Assembly (NCBI GenBank): GCA_021157815.1
Contig: JAGGVT010000215.1
Span: 1-13,013, forward strand
Direction: 5' to 3'
DNA length: 13,013 bases
Source of the DNA: a bacterium
GTDB taxonomy: Bacteria; JAJVIF01; JAGGVT01
In this document: piece after piece, positions 3,332 through 12,347 of the stretch
How positions within the stretch are numbered: the stretch's first letter is position 1
Layout of the letters: each line of letters begins with the position of its first letter
The notes under the pieces: model-generated
What the model saw: only the letters and a program-made list of their open reading frames with translations
What the model was told of the DNA's origin: nothing
Databases searched by the model: none
Made by a program: the position numbers and the translations under genes

Positions 3332-3808
3332 CTATTTCCCCAGTGCACCCCCCAGACTCTCCAGACCTTTCCCCAGTCCACCCAGTCTCTTCATCATTTC
3401 TATTGCATCCTCATCAGAGAAGTCCGATTCAGTTCTGTCGATTTTCCATTTCCCTTCTGCTCGAATAAGCACTGTTTTTCTGGACTCCTGGCCTATGACC
3501 CAGATTTTCACAGTATCTCCCTCCTGGCTGGATTGGAATTTGGATGCCTCCGGCATCTCAGTCATTTTTTTCATCATTGACTTTACGGCATTGAACTCCT
3601 TATCGATGAAATTCTGTGTGCAGTATCCTTTAGCGCCATCAAAATCCTGGTTGATTATATCCATGGTAAAATTAAAGATAACTTCCATAGGGTCGCTCGG
3701 GTACGGTTTGGAGCATCCTGCCACGGCAAAAATCGCGATTCCCATTAGAACAAGCATAGCGGATGCGGTTAATATCCTGAATGAGTTCCATTTTGATGTT
3801 TTTTTCAA
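3332..3808 (-). CDS. Small outer-membrane lipoprotein (DUF4878/NTF2-like pattern)
   Basis: The 158-residue protein has a type II signal peptide: positive N-terminus, hydrophobic segment (about 13-30) and lipobox VAGC with the lipidated Cys at 32. Ser at +2 favours the outer membrane. Residues about 40-130 fit the NTF2-like/DUF4878 layout: a helix around PMEVIFNFTMDIINQDFDGAKGYC, then strands including TVKIWVIG, KTVLIRAEG and KWKIDRTE. The C-terminus is glycine-rich. The start is TTG at 3808, supported by GGGGAG (3816-3821) at 7-nt spacing; there is no in-frame ATG nearby. The stop is TAG. Function is unknown: such domains often accompany transport or envelope systems. The family assignment is tentative; the lipoprotein call is firm. 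Confidence 0.82.
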   Translation of the reverse strand: MKKTSKWNSFRILTASAMLVLMGIAIFAVAGCSKPYPSDPMEVIFNFTMDIINQDFDGAKGYCTQNFIDKEFNAVKSMMKKMTEMPEASKFQSSQEGDTVKIWVIGQESRKTVLIRAEGKWKIDRTESDFSDEDAIEMMKRLGGLGKGLESLGGALGK

Positions 3809-4467: not shown

Positions 4468-5562
4468 CTATTCAACATCGATATAAAAAACCCCAGGACC
4501 TTCGTCGGGAGTTGCGAAAATCCTGCAGTTATAGATCGGATCATCGATTGGTACGACATCAATAAGCCAAAGATCAGGTGAATTTAGTCCGATTAATCGA
4601 TATGGATAACCGGAAACATTCACATCGATCTGCATCACAATGTTCGAAGGCTTATCATAGGTTGGCAGACCAGAGTCCGGGTCATATTCACGAGGAACTT
4701 CAAGAGCGTATAGCTTCTCATTAATAGGGTCAAAAGTTAGCTCAAGCAAACCTTTTAAATCCATATAAATTTCATCAGTTATCTGATCAGTCTGCATATC
4801 AACGACAATTAACGATGGATCATTTTGACTTGGAACGCTAGTACCAATATAAAGACTTCCATCGGTTCCTGAAACGAGAGAATCTGGGAATATATCTACC
4901 TCAATTGGTGATTGCGCAGTCAACACTCCCGAAGTATTGAAAACCCCAATGTTATAGAAGAAAGAATAATCTGGTTCTTCCGTTTGAAATGTTTCATTAC
5001 TAAGAACATATAGTTTAGTGCCATCCGGTGAAAATACAAGGTCATACGAAAAACTGCCAAATTCAACTTCACTATTAAAGGTAAAATCAGAAAGAGACAC
5101 TTTGGTTACTTTATGTGTAACCCTTTGACTTAGCCCATGTGAAATGTACGCATAGTTTTCTGAGTCATCAACTATAAATGAAAGAGGTGCGTGCTCAATC
5201 TGATACTCATTCAATGTTATACCAGTATCATAATCGATTTTTCTAAGAACTCCATCCTCGGTCATTTCATCGTTATCAACATCCCCGACTAAAACAAGTA
5301 AAGAACTCCCGCCATCTAACGGAATGACTTTCCTTATAAGGCCACCAATTGTAAAGGTCTTTTCCAGCGCCAGACTAAGAGGATTAAAAACATTTAGTTG
5401 AAAAAAATGTTCACCTGTACAACTGATAAAAAGCTGAGAAGTTTCATCACTATATTGAACATCATAAGATTCATAACCACATATGTTTATAGAACCTTCC
5501 ACTGCATATGCGTTACTGGAAAAAATAATAATTAGAATAACCATCAAAATGATATTTTTCAT
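4468..5562 (-). CDS. Secreted beta-propeller (YVTN/NHL-like) protein
   Basis: The 364-residue protein has a Sec signal peptide (1-20, cleavage after SNAYA). Recurrent blade-like units follow, each with a hydrophobic strand and an aspartate/glycine turn: DVQYSDETSQLFIS, FIVDDSENYAYISHG, DLVFSPDGTKLYVLSN, SLVSGTDGSLYIGT and ELTFDPINEKLYALE. This is the YVTN/NHL type of repeat, suggesting an extracellular propeller that binds protein or carbohydrate. No catalytic motif is evident. The start is firm: AAGGAGAT (5567-5574) precedes the ATG at 6 nt from its GGAG core. The gene begins 19 nt after the large lipoprotein gene ends, so the two are very likely co-transcribed and may act together at the cell surface. 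The stop is TAG, showing that TAG does terminate genes here. Confidence 0.8.
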   Translation of the reverse strand: MKNIILMVILIIIFSSNAYAVEGSINICGYESYDVQYSDETSQLFISCTGEHFFQLNVFNPLSLALEKTFTIGGLIRKVIPLDGGSSLLVLVGDVDNDEMTEDGVLRKIDYDTGITLNEYQIEHAPLSFIVDDSENYAYISHGLSQRVTHKVTKVSLSDFTFNSEVEFGSFSYDLVFSPDGTKLYVLSNETFQTEEPDYSFFYNIGVFNTSGVLTAQSPIEVDIFPDSLVSGTDGSLYIGTSVPSQNDPSLIVVDMQTDQITDEIYMDLKGLLELTFDPINEKLYALEVPREYDPDSGLPTYDKPSNIVMQIDVNVSGYPYRLIGLNSPDLWLIDVVPIDDPIYNCRIFATPDEGPGVFYIDVE

Positions 5563-5581
5563 CTCGATCTCCTTAATTTCT

Positions 5582-8383
5582 TTAATTTAATAATGGATGC
5601 CTAAATATTTTAAATCTTTGCTTTTTATTTTTTACACCAGGTGTCGAACCATCTGTCGTTTCCACTGTCCAATAGAAATAGCCATCATTTGGTGGTGGAG
5701 GTGGTACGAAATCAACAGCTCTGTGGTTAAAGGCCTCGGCCTTATAGGCATCCCTTCGATGATTTAAAAAGCACCAAACTGATGCCTCTAACCATGCAGC
5801 GACATTAAGATCCTTCGAATATGAGTTTTCTCCATCTGCGTAATAGTTATTATAGAAGTAGACGTAATCTCCTGATTCATAAGTTCCTGCGCCATATTTT
5901 ATAAACAATCTTTTTAAAATCTTTCCATGTCGTTGCGAAAAAGTTCCCCAAGAGTGAGTTTTGCCTTGCCCACCGCAAACAGAGCGGATATAACCAGTAT
6001 CGCTGTCAATTATATTTCGCCAATTTTTTATTGTGCCCCATTGCCCATTACCATTTAGCCCATTACATGTATTTAATACTAACCATCGTGTTTCAAGATT
6101 CTCGTGCCACCAAAAATCATTGTAATGCCCCCACCCATCACCAGATGTACTATAATCTGACCAATATGTAACCCCTCCCCATGAAAAAGAACGCAGAGAC
6201 CCATTCCAATTGTACGCAACGTGTGATTTTGCATTTTCTTGCCAACTGAACGCTCGGGGATTATATATCTCAGGCTGTTTAAATGGCAAAGCACGGTATG
6301 CATCATTAATAAATGCTTGCCCATGACTATTTATATATACCAGATCAGCAGTGCTTTGAACTGGAACTTCGCATTTTTCCGGTTGCCCAGTCGCAATGTA
6401 AATGGTGGATTCTATAATTTTTCCGGTTACAACCTCTATACCACCATTAGTAATGAATTCATCGTATGAATACCATCGCTTTTCATCCGGATTTATTGTT
6501 GAACATCCTACACCACGCCTTGTACCATAATCGGCACAGAAATACTCAGCATGAGCAGGAGAAGTAGGATCACTTGGGACTGCAGGATCCGTAAAAAGTG
6601 GATCATCTCCTTCCGCAATTGCAAAATCAAACTTTTGATTATTATTTAACATAAAATCCGAATGACTAACATATAGTATTCCGCATTCTGATGAAGAAGG
6701 ATCACCATCTGACACTTCAAGCCTTGCATGATAGTAAAGAGGGCAAATAGATTGTGGATTAAACACAAGATCAAGGTTAGTAAATCCACCATAAAGCTCA
6801 GCAAGTATAGGATCACCTTCGCGTATCATATGAAGTTGCATTGTTATCTTGTCTGTCTCACCACTACTAGATGGGAATTGAGTTTCAGAACTTGAAAATT
6901 CAACATCAATAGTATCTGAAGGATTCGGATGCCCATTTGATTCTAAAAGCAGGAAGAAATCCAGATAAACTTTTCCATTATTTGGGCTATCAATACTTCT
7001 ATTATAAATAAATGTTGTATCTGTATCTTGATTCAAACCTGAGCCATCATAATGCACCATTTTCCAATTAGGATCTGACAGGTTAGGGTTACTTGAAAGA
7101 ACATCATATGGATTATCATTCACAAAACCGGCTTTTGCCGTGTTGGTGTCGAATCCTAATAAATCCATTACATTACTGCTACGTCTCCAGTTTCCCTTGT
7201 ATGTTAAGAATGTTGGATCATAAGAAGCATCCTCAATTCTCACTCTCAAGTCATAGAAACCACCTTGATTTTTATAATCATTTAGAATTTCAGATAGATT
7301 CCAAAAAACCACAGCACCCTCGGAGGCTTTCCAATCCTCCCCAATTCTGCCAGGTTCTATATCCGTTCCTGGTTTAGGGTATGCAGGATCGGCCCAGGCA
7401 TTAGCCTCAATTGAACCGCCAAAATCACCTGCCCATGGCATATAATCAAGCAAGATGCCGATGTATTGATCACCTCCTCGATAAATATCCATAAAAGTAT
7501 CTCCCATACCTGTTATACCATCAAGACAACAATGATTATAATCAATAAAACCGTGTCTATTATTTGGAATTGGATCTTTAACCTGAGCGACAATGAAAAG
7601 GTCGCAAGGATTTAATAGATTAAAAGTTCCCAGGAAATCATCCAAAGCAGGTCTATCCAAACTGGAAATTCTTTTAGTTGATGAACCTAATGGTTCATTT
7701 TTGGCTGGAATACCATCAAGCCATCCTCCCGAACCTCCCACAAAATCAGGTATTTCCCACCCATATTTAATTACAGGTTCATGAACAAACACTGGGTTTA
7801 GATAATCAAAAGCAGTCCCACCAAGCTGCAAATCAATACTTCCAAGCCAGATATTGAAAGGATCACACATACCCCAAAAGTCTAAACCAAAATCATGAGA
7901 ATAACTTTCAGGTAAAGAAATGGTTTGGATACCTTCAATGAGTGGATGCCACCACAAATCTTCATGTTCTGGTGTACCACCTACCAAATCATCACATTCC
8001 TGATAAAGAGACAAATTCGGATCCCTGTTCGCTATTGGTGTTCTCGAACAAAGCCATTGTACGTCAATGCAATCATGTCTGTGTAAAGTAAATGCGAAAG
8101 CTGCTCTCTCGAGTTCCTTTGGGTCATGCACATTTCTGGCAAGCCCATCTTTATCATTAACCCATGCCATTGTTGGGGGATTTGTGTCACAGTTTTGGCA
8201 AAGCGTACTTTTAGCATTTCTTTCGTCTACTAAATTTGAGTAGGTAGCAGGTCCGTTCTTGTCAGTAAAAACTATGGAAAATGGTTTTGGACTCTCGAAA
8301 GATCCGTGTCGAATTGGATCTATTTTTAGTTTCACCAGCATATTCCCGGATATTTTCAATATATCATCATCTGAAATAATTGA
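5582..8383 (-). CDS. Downstream part of the large lipoprotein, with C-terminal caspase-like HG...C domain
   Basis: This is in the same frame as the lipoprotein at 8384-8986, with only TAG 8384-8386 between. The first sense codons after TAG read SIISDDDI, then a TTG codon at 8359 that is the first possible start. Neither that TTG nor the ATG at 8341 has a Shine-Dalgarno. There is no signal peptide. Numbering from the TTG, residues 1-40 complete the Ig-like domain begun upstream. The long middle has aromatic- and Cys-containing modules of unknown type. Residues about 645-870 carry LVYINSHG (H679) and RWLVLNTC (C765), each a hydrophobic strand ending in a catalytic-type His-Gly or Cys, as in clan CD peptidases. 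Later LNVAAWLEASVW also fits a DUF6345-like domain. A proline run precedes a tail strand (YFYWTVETTDG). Either the gene is broken or TAG is read through. Confidence 0.72.
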   Translation of the reverse strand, partial: SIISDDDILKISGNMLVKLKIDPIRHGSFESPKPFSIVFTDKNGPATYSNLVDERNAKSTLCQNCDTNPPTMAWVNDKDGLARNVHDPKELERAAFAFTLHRHDCIDVQWLCSRTPIANRDPNLSLYQECDDLVGGTPEHEDLWWHPLIEGIQTISLPESYSHDFGLDFWGMCDPFNIWLGSIDLQLGGTAFDYLNPVFVHEPVIKYGWEIPDFVGGSGGWLDGIPAKNEPLGSSTKRISSLDRPALDDFLGTFNLLNPCDLFIVAQVKDPIPNNRHGFIDYNHCCLDGITGMGDTFMDIYRGGDQYIGILLDYMPWAGDFGGSIEANAWADPAYPKPGTDIEPGRIGEDWKASEGAVVFWNLSEILNDYKNQGGFYDLRVRIEDASYDPTFLTYKGNWRRSSNVMDLLGFDTNTAKAGFVNDNPYDVLSSNPNLSDPNWKMVHYDGSGLNQDTDTTFIYNRSIDSPNNGKVYLDFFLLLESNGHPNPSDTIDVEFSSSETQFPSSSGETDKITMQLHMIREGDPILAELYGGFTNLDLVFNPQSICPLYYHARLEVSDGDPSSSECGILYVSHSDFMLNNNQKFDFAIAEGDDPLFTDPAVPSDPTSPAHAEYFCADYGTRRGVGCSTINPDEKRWYSYDEFITNGGIEVVTGKIIESTIYIATGQPEKCEVPVQSTADLVYINSHGQAFINDAYRALPFKQPEIYNPRAFSWQENAKSHVAYNWNGSLRSFSWGGVTYWSDYSTSGDGWGHYNDFWWHENLETRWLVLNTCNGLNGNGQWGTIKNWRNIIDSDTGYIRSVCGGQGKTHSWGTFSQRHGKILKRLFIKYGAGTYESGDYVYFYNNYYADGENSYSKDLNVAAWLEASVWCFLNHRRDAYKAEAFNHRAVDFVPPPPPNDGYFYWTVETTDGSTPGVKNKKQRFKIFRHPLLN

Positions 8384-8386
8384 CTA
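8384..8386 (-). other. In-frame TAG within the large lipoprotein gene
   Basis: The minus strand reads ...WSLNG, TAG, SIISDDDI... with both sides in one frame (8384 minus 5582 is 2802, divisible by 3). The Ig-like domain starting near TPPEIERVLWHKNENAITVWF needs strands from both sides (after the TAG: MLVKLKIDP and FSIVFTDKNG). The immediate 3' context is UAG-U. It may be a nonsense mutation, a sequencing error, or a readthrough or suppression site. Confidence 0.85.
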
Positions 8387-8986
8387 CCCGTTAAGTGACC
8401 AGCGCGATGTATCTTTAAGAACAGATGGTTCAACCTTTCGATCAAACCAAACAGTTATTGCATTTTCATTCTTATGCCAAAGGACCCTTTCAATTTCAGG
8501 AGGAGTGGTTAAAACAGTGAAATCCCAACCATAATTCCTAAATAGCCCATCTTTACTATGAAAAATAATCTCGACATGATGATTTCCATCTCCCAAGGGA
8601 TAAGGAGCTGCAAAACTGATCTGTTTTGCGGAAAGATTGAGGGAGCACTCAAAGCGTTCCTCATCCACTGTAGCATAGAAGTCTGTGTTTGAAACTGGAA
8701 GATTAGTTTCGATATGAGCACTGAATACAGGTAAATTATTCGTAAGAATTGGTGGTGACAACTCTGAAGCAAAATACTCCGCTGGTCCTGTCTTGGATAT
8801 CTTAAAAACATACTTTTGATGACAGTCACCTAACTTGAAATTGCTATCATTAGCACCTTTTTCATTTGTATATGCGCTCTCGCCTGGCAATAATGGAGTG
8901 AGGGGTGAATGTTTTGATTGGCAACTAATTATTACTGCAAAAACAGCGACAACTAAAAATAATGACAGTGTCTTTAGTTTAAACAT
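8384..8986 (-). CDS. N-terminal part of the large Ig-like surface lipoprotein, ended by an in-frame TAG
   Basis: The 200-codon segment begins with a lipoprotein signal peptide: MFKLK, hydrophobic stretch 7-20, lipobox IISC with Cys at 22. It is therefore membrane-anchored outside the cytoplasm, and Gln at +2 favours the outer membrane. Residues about 65-150 form an Ig-like module ending in the typical YPLGDGNHHVEIIF...GWDFTV pattern. From about 152 an SbsA/Big_5-like Ig domain starts (PPEIERVLWHKNENAITVWFD) but is cut after about 48 residues by TAG. Its missing strands are found in frame just downstream. The start ATG has GAGG (8995-8998) at 8-nt spacing. It is the first gene of the operon with the downstream segment and the propeller gene. 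As it stands the product would be a short lipoprotein with an incomplete domain. Confidence 0.75.
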   Translation of the reverse strand: MFKLKTLSLFLVVAVFAVIISCQSKHSPLTPLLPGESAYTNEKGANDSNFKLGDCHQKYVFKISKTGPAEYFASELSPPILTNNLPVFSAHIETNLPVSNTDFYATVDEERFECSLNLSAKQISFAAPYPLGDGNHHVEIIFHSKDGLFRNYGWDFTVLTTPPEIERVLWHKNENAITVWFDRKVEPSVLKDTSRWSLNG

Positions 8987-9035
8987 GAAATTAGCCTCGT
9001 AAATTACTATGATGAAACATTAATTAGATTTAATA

Positions 9036-9044
9036 ATTATACCA
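9036..9044 (-). promoter_or_regulatory. Extended -10 promoter of the lipoprotein/propeller operon
   Basis: On the minus strand, TGGTATAAT (9044-9036) is a perfect extended -10 (TGN plus TATAAT), about 40 nt upstream of the operon's Shine-Dalgarno. The -35 region at 17-nt spacing is poor, as is common with extended -10 promoters. Confidence 0.5.
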
Positions 9045-9094
9045 TGATTTTCTCAATTTAAGTAGGGTGAAATGTGATTTTTTGTCAATGTGTC

Positions 9095-9139
9095 AGCCAC
9101 CGAAAATAGTAAAATCAATTTACATGATGGTTGGTGGCT
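9095..9139. repeat. Long-loop inverted repeat between the operon and mntP
   Basis: AGCCACC (9095-9101) and GGTGGCT (9133-9139) form a perfect 7-bp stem with a 31-nt loop. It lies upstream of the operon promoter and downstream of mntP. Its role is not clear. Confidence 0.35.
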
Positions 9140-9143
9140 TGTA

Positions 9144-9170
9144 ATTCCCCTTACAAGGTTATAAGGGAAT
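9144..9170 (-). terminator. Hairpin downstream of mntP, possible terminator
   Basis: ATTCCCCTTA (9144-9153) pairs with TAAGGGAAT (9162-9170), with one bulged C and an 8-nt loop. It starts 10 nt after the mntP stop on the minus strand, but no T-run follows. It may terminate weakly or only protect the transcript end. Confidence 0.4.
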
Positions 9171-9180
9171 AATCGATTTA

Positions 9181-9741
9181 TCACATTATGTGGTCAAGGA
9201 GAATTTTGAATCCGATGATAATTAAAATCAATCCGCCGATTATCTCCATCCGTTTACCGAATCGCGCACCAAGCCTGCCACCAATTGAGATTCCGATTAA
9301 TGTAAAAGCTGTTATCACAATGCCGATTACATAAACCGGACACCAAATTGAAATCTCCATAAGAGCAAAACTCAACCCAACCCCCAGCGCATCAAGGCTG
9401 GTTGCAAAGGACAGTATGAGCAATGTAGCTCCTTTCGTTGGGTCATTCGTCAAACCCTCATTATTTTTATTCTTGACTGATTGATAAATCATCTTTGAAC
9501 CAATGAAACAGAGCAGGCAGAAAACAAGCCAGTGATCCCAGGTGGATATCAGTTTTTCCAGATTTAATCCGACAAACCATCCTGTTATCACCATGATTAT
9601 GTGAAATAACGCGAAATGAAATGCCATGCGAAAAGCCTGTCGCACGGACACTTTCACCAGTGCGACGCCAGTGGCAATTGCCACGGCAAATGAATCCATC
9701 GCAAGCCCAACAGCAAGCGCTATCAGCACAAACATGTTCAT
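9181..9741 (-). CDS. mntP: Manganese efflux pump MntP
   Basis: Exports Mn2+ across the inner membrane to prevent manganese toxicity. The 186-residue protein has six hydrophobic segments. It has the two family signatures, AMDSFAVAIATG in helix 1 and SFATSLDALGVGLSFA in helix 4, plus GGRLGARFGKRMEIIGGLILIIIGFKIL at the end. Starting at the ATG at 9741, the acidic residues fall at D16 and D117, matching the essential aspartates near positions 16 and 118 of E. coli MntP. I therefore prefer this start to the ATG nine codons upstream (9768). No clear Shine-Dalgarno precedes either. The gene is divergent from the sigma factor gene. I looked for the yybP-ykoY manganese riboswitch in the roughly 130-nt leader and did not find it. 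Confidence 0.92.
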   Translation of the reverse strand: MNMFVLIALAVGLAMDSFAVAIATGVALVKVSVRQAFRMAFHFALFHIIMVITGWFVGLNLEKLISTWDHWLVFCLLCFIGSKMIYQSVKNKNNEGLTNDPTKGATLLILSFATSLDALGVGLSFALMEISIWCPVYVIGIVITAFTLIGISIGGRLGARFGKRMEIIGGLILIIIGFKILLDHIM

Positions 9742-11530: not shown

Positions 11531-12313
11531 TTACGACTTCAATCTCTGCGCAATCTCCTTCGCCGCCTTCACGCCGGAGAGAATCATGCCGCCGAAAACA
11601 GGGCCCATTCTTGGAGCGCCGAATATCGCGTTTGCAGCCATTCCAACCGCCCAGACGTTCGGGAAGAACTCCTTCGTATTTTCAATTACGGTTATCTCAC
11701 CGCTGGATGCGTCCATGGAACCCTCTCCGACAACTCCACCTGTAGCGGTATTCAGTTTAAATCCCGATTTCTTTTCAATCAGGCGAGCGATTTCACACGG
11801 ATGCCCTGACGCTTCCACGAGCACTTTCGCGTACATTGTAATCGGGTCAACATGCAGTCCCGCCATTTCAACAGGCGACCAGTTCAGCACAAGTCCGGCA
11901 ATCGATTTGCCGCCAATCGCGACATCCTCCGCGATCATCAGATTGAAAATCCTGGTTCCCGCGAGTGTCGCTTTTGATGCGATTGTTGTTACAGCGACAA
12001 CTGCGTCAGCGGTGTAGTAGCCGGGTTCATCGAATTCGACATACGGAATCCCCAGCTCATCCAGAACCCAAAGGCAGTCATTGCCCACAACGATTTCGTT
12101 CATCATGATTCCCCCTCCCCACATTCCACCGCCGATGGACAGATTTCGCTCGAACATGCTGACCTTGAAACCCTCTTTCGCAAGGTAATAGGCGCAGATT
12201 AATCCCGCCGGTCCCGTGCCGACAATGGCGACATCGCTTTCGAGACAGTCATTCAGTTTCTCGGTGAATCGTTTGAGAATCGCGCGGCTGATTGTTACAT
12301 CATTCCATTTCAT
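11531..12313 (-). CDS. thi4: Thi4 thiamine thiazole synthase, His-type (sulfide-dependent)
   Basis: Makes the thiazole precursor of thiamine (ADP-thiazole) from NAD and glycine with a sulfur source. The 260-residue length is typical. An FAD/NAD-type Rossmann motif occupies 32-37 (GTGPAG), followed by MFERN (acidic E55 at the end of strand 2), GGGMWGGGIM (about 61-70) and the C-terminal AVGMAANAIFGAPRMGPVFGGMILSG signature. In NWSPVEMAGLHVDP, His154 stands where eukaryotic Thi4 has the sulfur-donating Cys. Archaeal Thi4 with His is known to use free sulfide catalytically, so the same is inferred here. I start at the ATG at 12313, which has GGGAGA (12322-12327) 8 nt upstream; the more upstream ATG at 12340 lacks one. 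No other thiamine gene is adjacent, and I found no TPP riboswitch. Confidence 0.93.
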   Translation of the reverse strand: MKWNDVTISRAILKRFTEKLNDCLESDVAIVGTGPAGLICAYYLAKEGFKVSMFERNLSIGGGMWGGGIMMNEIVVGNDCLWVLDELGIPYVEFDEPGYYTADAVVAVTTIASKATLAGTRIFNLMIAEDVAIGGKSIAGLVLNWSPVEMAGLHVDPITMYAKVLVEASGHPCEIARLIEKKSGFKLNTATGGVVGEGSMDASSGEITVIENTKEFFPNVWAVGMAANAIFGAPRMGPVFGGMILSGVKAAKEIAQRLKS

Positions 12314-12347
12314 ATTGAAAATCTCCCGTCGTTTTAACAAAGGTTCA

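Follow-up and report, generated by a model that had tools for sequence, protein, structure and literature searches.

The window, the whole 13,013-nucleotide stretch of DNA analyzed here, is contig C208 of a 3.2 Mb draft genome that comprises 221 contigs and is 91% complete. On its minus strand, a reading frame of 1,135 codons extends from an ATG at 8986 to a TAA at 5582 (codon 1135). Translation of 8986..5582 agrees with an earlier note on this DNA in that the frame has a single internal stop, a TAG at 8386-8384 (codon 201). The split gene and the gene that follows it are composed of the following features.

8387..8986, minus strand: 5′ part of the split gene, 200 codons, with the signal and lipobox, a linker, a first Ig-like domain, and the first half of a second
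8384..8386, minus strand: in-frame TAG, codon 201, seen on translation; paralogues C23, C194, and C109 have sense residues here
5582..8383, minus strand: 3′ part, in the frame of the 5′ part, 933 codons plus TAA, homologous to C88, C23, and C161
4468..5562, minus strand: intact downstream partner gene, 364 amino acids, with a signal-peptide-like N terminus and the Shine-Dalgarno (SD) sequence AAGGAG; it recurs by family members

The N terminus encoded by the 5′ part (MFKLK...VVAVFAVIISC-QSKHS) was judged by eye to be a lipoprotein signal. A stretch of 933 open codons has a chance probability of ∼1.5e-29 at the sequence's own composition, and the other two frames of this part on the same strand receive strongly negative coding scores in a hexamer model trained on the host genome, which marks the downstream part as genuine coding sequence. 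The length of 925 codons given for it previously holds if counting begins at a TTG, the earliest start-type codon in frame, but the open frame after the stop has 933.

Potential restart codons are present beyond the stop: an in-frame TTG, ATG, and GTG lie 8–16 codons past the TAG, as would be needed if the locus held two separate genes, the second translated by reinitiation. The anti-SD energies of these starts, at 8359, 8341, and 8335, are 0.4, −1.1, and −4.3 kcal/mol, compared with −9.2 kcal/mol for the next gene and −5.9 kcal/mol for the lipoprotein start. Their SD sequences are thus weak or absent, and no signal sequence is visible by eye, as the earlier note had it. Separate translation of the downstream part is unlikely because a good SD and a signal sequence are both lacking and because the product would start partway through an Ig-like domain, whereas C23 and C194, which are full-length paralogues, each have an N-terminal lipoprotein signal. 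The two-gene arrangement is accordingly considered extremely improbable.

The pair of frames in the window is also unusual within its genome. In a survey of stop usage and split genes covering about 629 kb and 445 gene-like frames, 29 adjacent same-frame pairs were found and inspected by eye. An SD-like match precedes the start after the stop in 21 of the 29, presumably including C89 through a chance match. In seven others, an ATG lies shortly past the stop or, in L090, there is a second signal sequence. The pair in the window alone has no SD-bearing start, early ATG, or second signal. No other clear split was seen among the 445 frames by this same-frame pair test, which is mechanical and of unknown sensitivity for split genes.

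The split gene belongs to a paralogous family of the host genome. Paralogues C23, C194, and C109 are single frames of 1,209, 1,066, and 1,070 codons (stop to stop), respectively, and further family loci are located at contig ends (C88, C161, C106/C48, C89, C13, and C174). C37, which has a long frame, shares the signal and linker region with the family. The 5′ part of the split gene is 38% identical to C194 and 34% identical to C23. Over the downstream part, identity to the paralogues is merely 33–38%, and the ancestral codon at the stop site is therefore not certain. The signal-plus-linker segment is near-identical among members whose mature parts differ (e.g. C23, C194, C37, and C13); at the N termini of L011, L010, L117, and L070, this export segment reads TPPxILVIPLLFSMLFVQCSKGSDTIMPIxPSGDY. 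Such conservation of the export segment next to differing mature parts points to domain shuffling. Neither half of the split gene nor the partner gene matches a significant Pfam or NCBIfam family, and naming domains by Pfam, NCBIfam, and PDB sequence gave no meaningful match. No relative outside the host genome was found among 385 genomes searched with a profile, in two genome-contig scans, or in plasmids; these searches covered four genomes of the host phylum, and records very near the genome itself were possibly left out of the scans. The family is lineage-restricted and evolves through duplication, domain shuffling, truncation, and loss.

C109 and C194 have N-terminal Ig-like domains in common but unlike C termini: that of C109 contains HELSHGFG, which resembles a zinc-protease motif, and that of C194 has a weak amidase-like match. 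In the C-terminal part of the split gene (5900-6400 of the window), DLVYINSHG ... RWLVLNTCNG recalls, by eye, the His/Cys pair of clan CD peptidases. C88 lacks the His of this clan CD-like pattern and has LIEADG there.

The three paralogues that cover the stop site are uninterrupted across it. In the N-terminal alignment, the window gene reads SRWSLNG-stop-SIISDDDILK, and the aligned stretches are SRWRFNAEQDILRE in C23, SRWLFNAEQNILRE in C194, and SNWKLNGSSDLIEK in C109. The alignment of homologues at this position, which the earlier note had proposed, places Glu (C23), Glu (C194), and Ser (C109) in the TAG column. An AlphaFold model of the C23 N terminus (mean pLDDT of 60, mostly 70–90 over residues 66–256) contains two Ig-like domains, residues ∼62–165 and ∼166–256, and a Foldseek search with this model returned mostly Ig-domain proteins at modest TM-scores. 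The TAG column corresponds to about residue 205 of C23, which in the model lies in a loop of the second Ig-like domain with strands on both sides, consistent with the placement of the stop inside an Ig-like domain by the first reading of the sequence. Because the paralogues are continuous and the stop falls within a modeled domain, the family protein is a single continuous chain that the stop interrupts within a domain. For the downstream part, a model of 925 residues reached a pLDDT of only 31.8 and was left out of the analysis.

A further reading is that UAG is decoded as an amino acid throughout the organism, by reassignment or as pyrrolysine. As in genes with pyrrolysine-decoded UAG, a TAG lies in frame within a long frame, and nothing beyond this in-frame TAG speaks for such decoding. 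In contrast to those systems, TAG is widely used as a terminator here. The earlier note had argued against global reassignment from three other genes ending in TAG at 3332, 4468, and 12582; TAG is confirmed as the stop at these positions, and across the 629 kb sample it terminates 125 of 423 gene-like frames (about 30%). Release factor RF1 is present, with a score of 470 bits, above the cut-off. The search for pylT/pylS and amber suppressor tRNAs that had been suggested along with this count of TAG-ended genes yielded for PylS only a sub-cut-off match, and the same profile also matches in 13 of 14 control genomes. A tRNA with a CUA anticodon was not found among 41 covariance-model matches, by a pattern search, or with ARAGORN, which was applied to all tRNA loci as well as 40 sampled contigs, in a genome of which ∼9% is missing, Thr and Tyr tRNAs are not seen, and 34 first-look candidates are unscored. 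For the 91% of the genome that was available, UAG suppression or reassignment was thus rejected, and a reassigned or pyrrolysine-encoding UAG is nearly refuted.

Functional readthrough is a distinct case, in which some ribosomes would decode the TAG with a near-cognate tRNA and both a short and a long surface protein would be made. The wholly preserved downstream frame is consistent with this, and it has been proposed that bacterial genes with isolated in-frame stops are frequently read through (Belinky et al. 2021, PMC7918605). The split gene resembles those proposed cases in that its stop stands alone and the frame shows no other damage. The published cases, however, are based on dN/dS measurements and on orthologues that share the stop, whereas the stop described here occurs in one sequence only. 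It is conserved in no paralogue, all three that cover the site having a sense codon. The RNA 3′ of the TAG (117 nt) folds no better than its shuffles (z = −0.02), and a regulatory hairpin after the stop was rejected on this basis. The tRNA and RF1 results above likewise disfavor readthrough, as does the other split paralogue, C89, which has a different stop codon in a different place. Readthrough of the TAG is therefore decidedly unlikely, and the earlier suggestion that UAG is suppressed or read through finds no support in these results.

The same note had offered phase variation as an option. No tandem repeat is present in 5400-9200, where only weak scattered repeats occur, and no slippage tract lies near the stop; phase variation, which would call for a repeat tract or invertible element at the switch, was rejected. 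A related idea, that the family stops (TAG in the window gene and TAA in C89) are read through at a low level or toggled by reversion, with long forms in a minority of molecules or cells, is very doubtful. If readthrough were true, it would provide a family-wide way to make surface proteins rare.

The window gene is not the only damaged member of the family. In C89 (about 6110-7277), 217 codons are followed by a single in-frame TAA, beyond which the gene continues in the same frame to the contig end; the protein encoded by this interrupted gene is shorter, the middle part being absent. The stops of the window gene and C89 share neither codon, place, nor context, and this speaks against a common recoding device. 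C161 has an early stop and runs into a partner gene seemingly without a signal sequence. C106 and C48 jointly represent a family fragment that lacks both ends, and they have 127 bases in common; the overlap, directly behind the partner gene, is an assembly break in a repeat-like region.

The C106/C48 break is one reason to consider that the TAG is itself a consensus or assembly artefact, the gene being intact in the population and the TAG arising from an assembly error or from a minor strain in the bin. The genome is a 221-contig draft with several family loci at contig ends, and the 1,133 codons of the split gene show no further damage. The nearer contig end, however, is ∼4.6 kb from the stop, C161 and C106/C48 are damaged by truncation rather than by single-base errors, and the genome contains no near-identical twin of C208 that could have been mixed in. 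At the DNA level, other matches extend over only 57 and 41 bases; gene conversion from a near-identical donor copy was rejected for the same reason. An artefact is unlikely overall.

The explanation that we favor, at a probability of roughly 0.77, is that the split gene is a recent pseudogene or segregating nonsense allele, one member of a surface-lipoprotein family in birth-and-death decay. In this scheme, a substitution would have given the TAG at codon 201, and translation would normally stop there, yielding at most a 200-residue lipoprotein cut in the second Ig-like domain, with the 933-codon remainder not made. Loss of one copy would be tolerated because the family turns over by duplication, shuffling, truncation, and loss. 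Of the options raised beforehand, a recent nonsense mutation (or assembly error) is the one that fits the intact paralogues crossing the site and the broken state of other members. We infer both the loss of function of the split gene and the recency of its mutation. The absence of further stops in 1,133 codons limits neutral divergence to about 0.018–0.020 per site (95%) if selection ceased, a bound that does not separate a pseudogene from readthrough, since a gene under selection through readthrough would look alike. In the sets searched, no other strain or species yielded an orthologue from which loss of selection could be measured as dN/dS.

Against the nonsense reading, 933 codons without other damage also fit a gene that is still made by readthrough, and Belinky et al. 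(2021, PMC7918605) caution that pseudogenes are poorly marked by a lone in-frame stop when no other decay is seen. It is mainly this caution that keeps the pseudogene or nonsense-allele explanation from a higher probability. The locus is otherwise like nonsense pseudogenes in multigene families of bacterial surface proteins, with a single stop in one copy, intact paralogues, and other copies truncated. It differs from them in that this protein family matches nothing in Pfam or NCBIfam and, in the sets searched, has no relatives beyond its own genome. A striking long frame with one stop can thus be placed by means of intact and broken paralogues of the same genome; the interest of the case is modest and lies in the visible birth-and-death turnover of a family of surface lipoproteins that is lineage-restricted.

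There is some variability in the placement of the partner gene with respect to the lipoprotein gene. A signal-bearing partner gene is located 3′ of the lipoprotein gene in the window and in C88, and probably in C23. In C106, the partner gene sits upstream of the family fragment, and the C161 fragment is followed by a different gene, of the LVIVD/propeller type. Elsewhere in the window, 11531-12340 encodes a Thi4-family thiazole synthase with the stretch HVDP, at what we take to be the place where suicidal Thi4 enzymes have their sacrificial Cys; this enzyme is possibly of the sulfide-using type.
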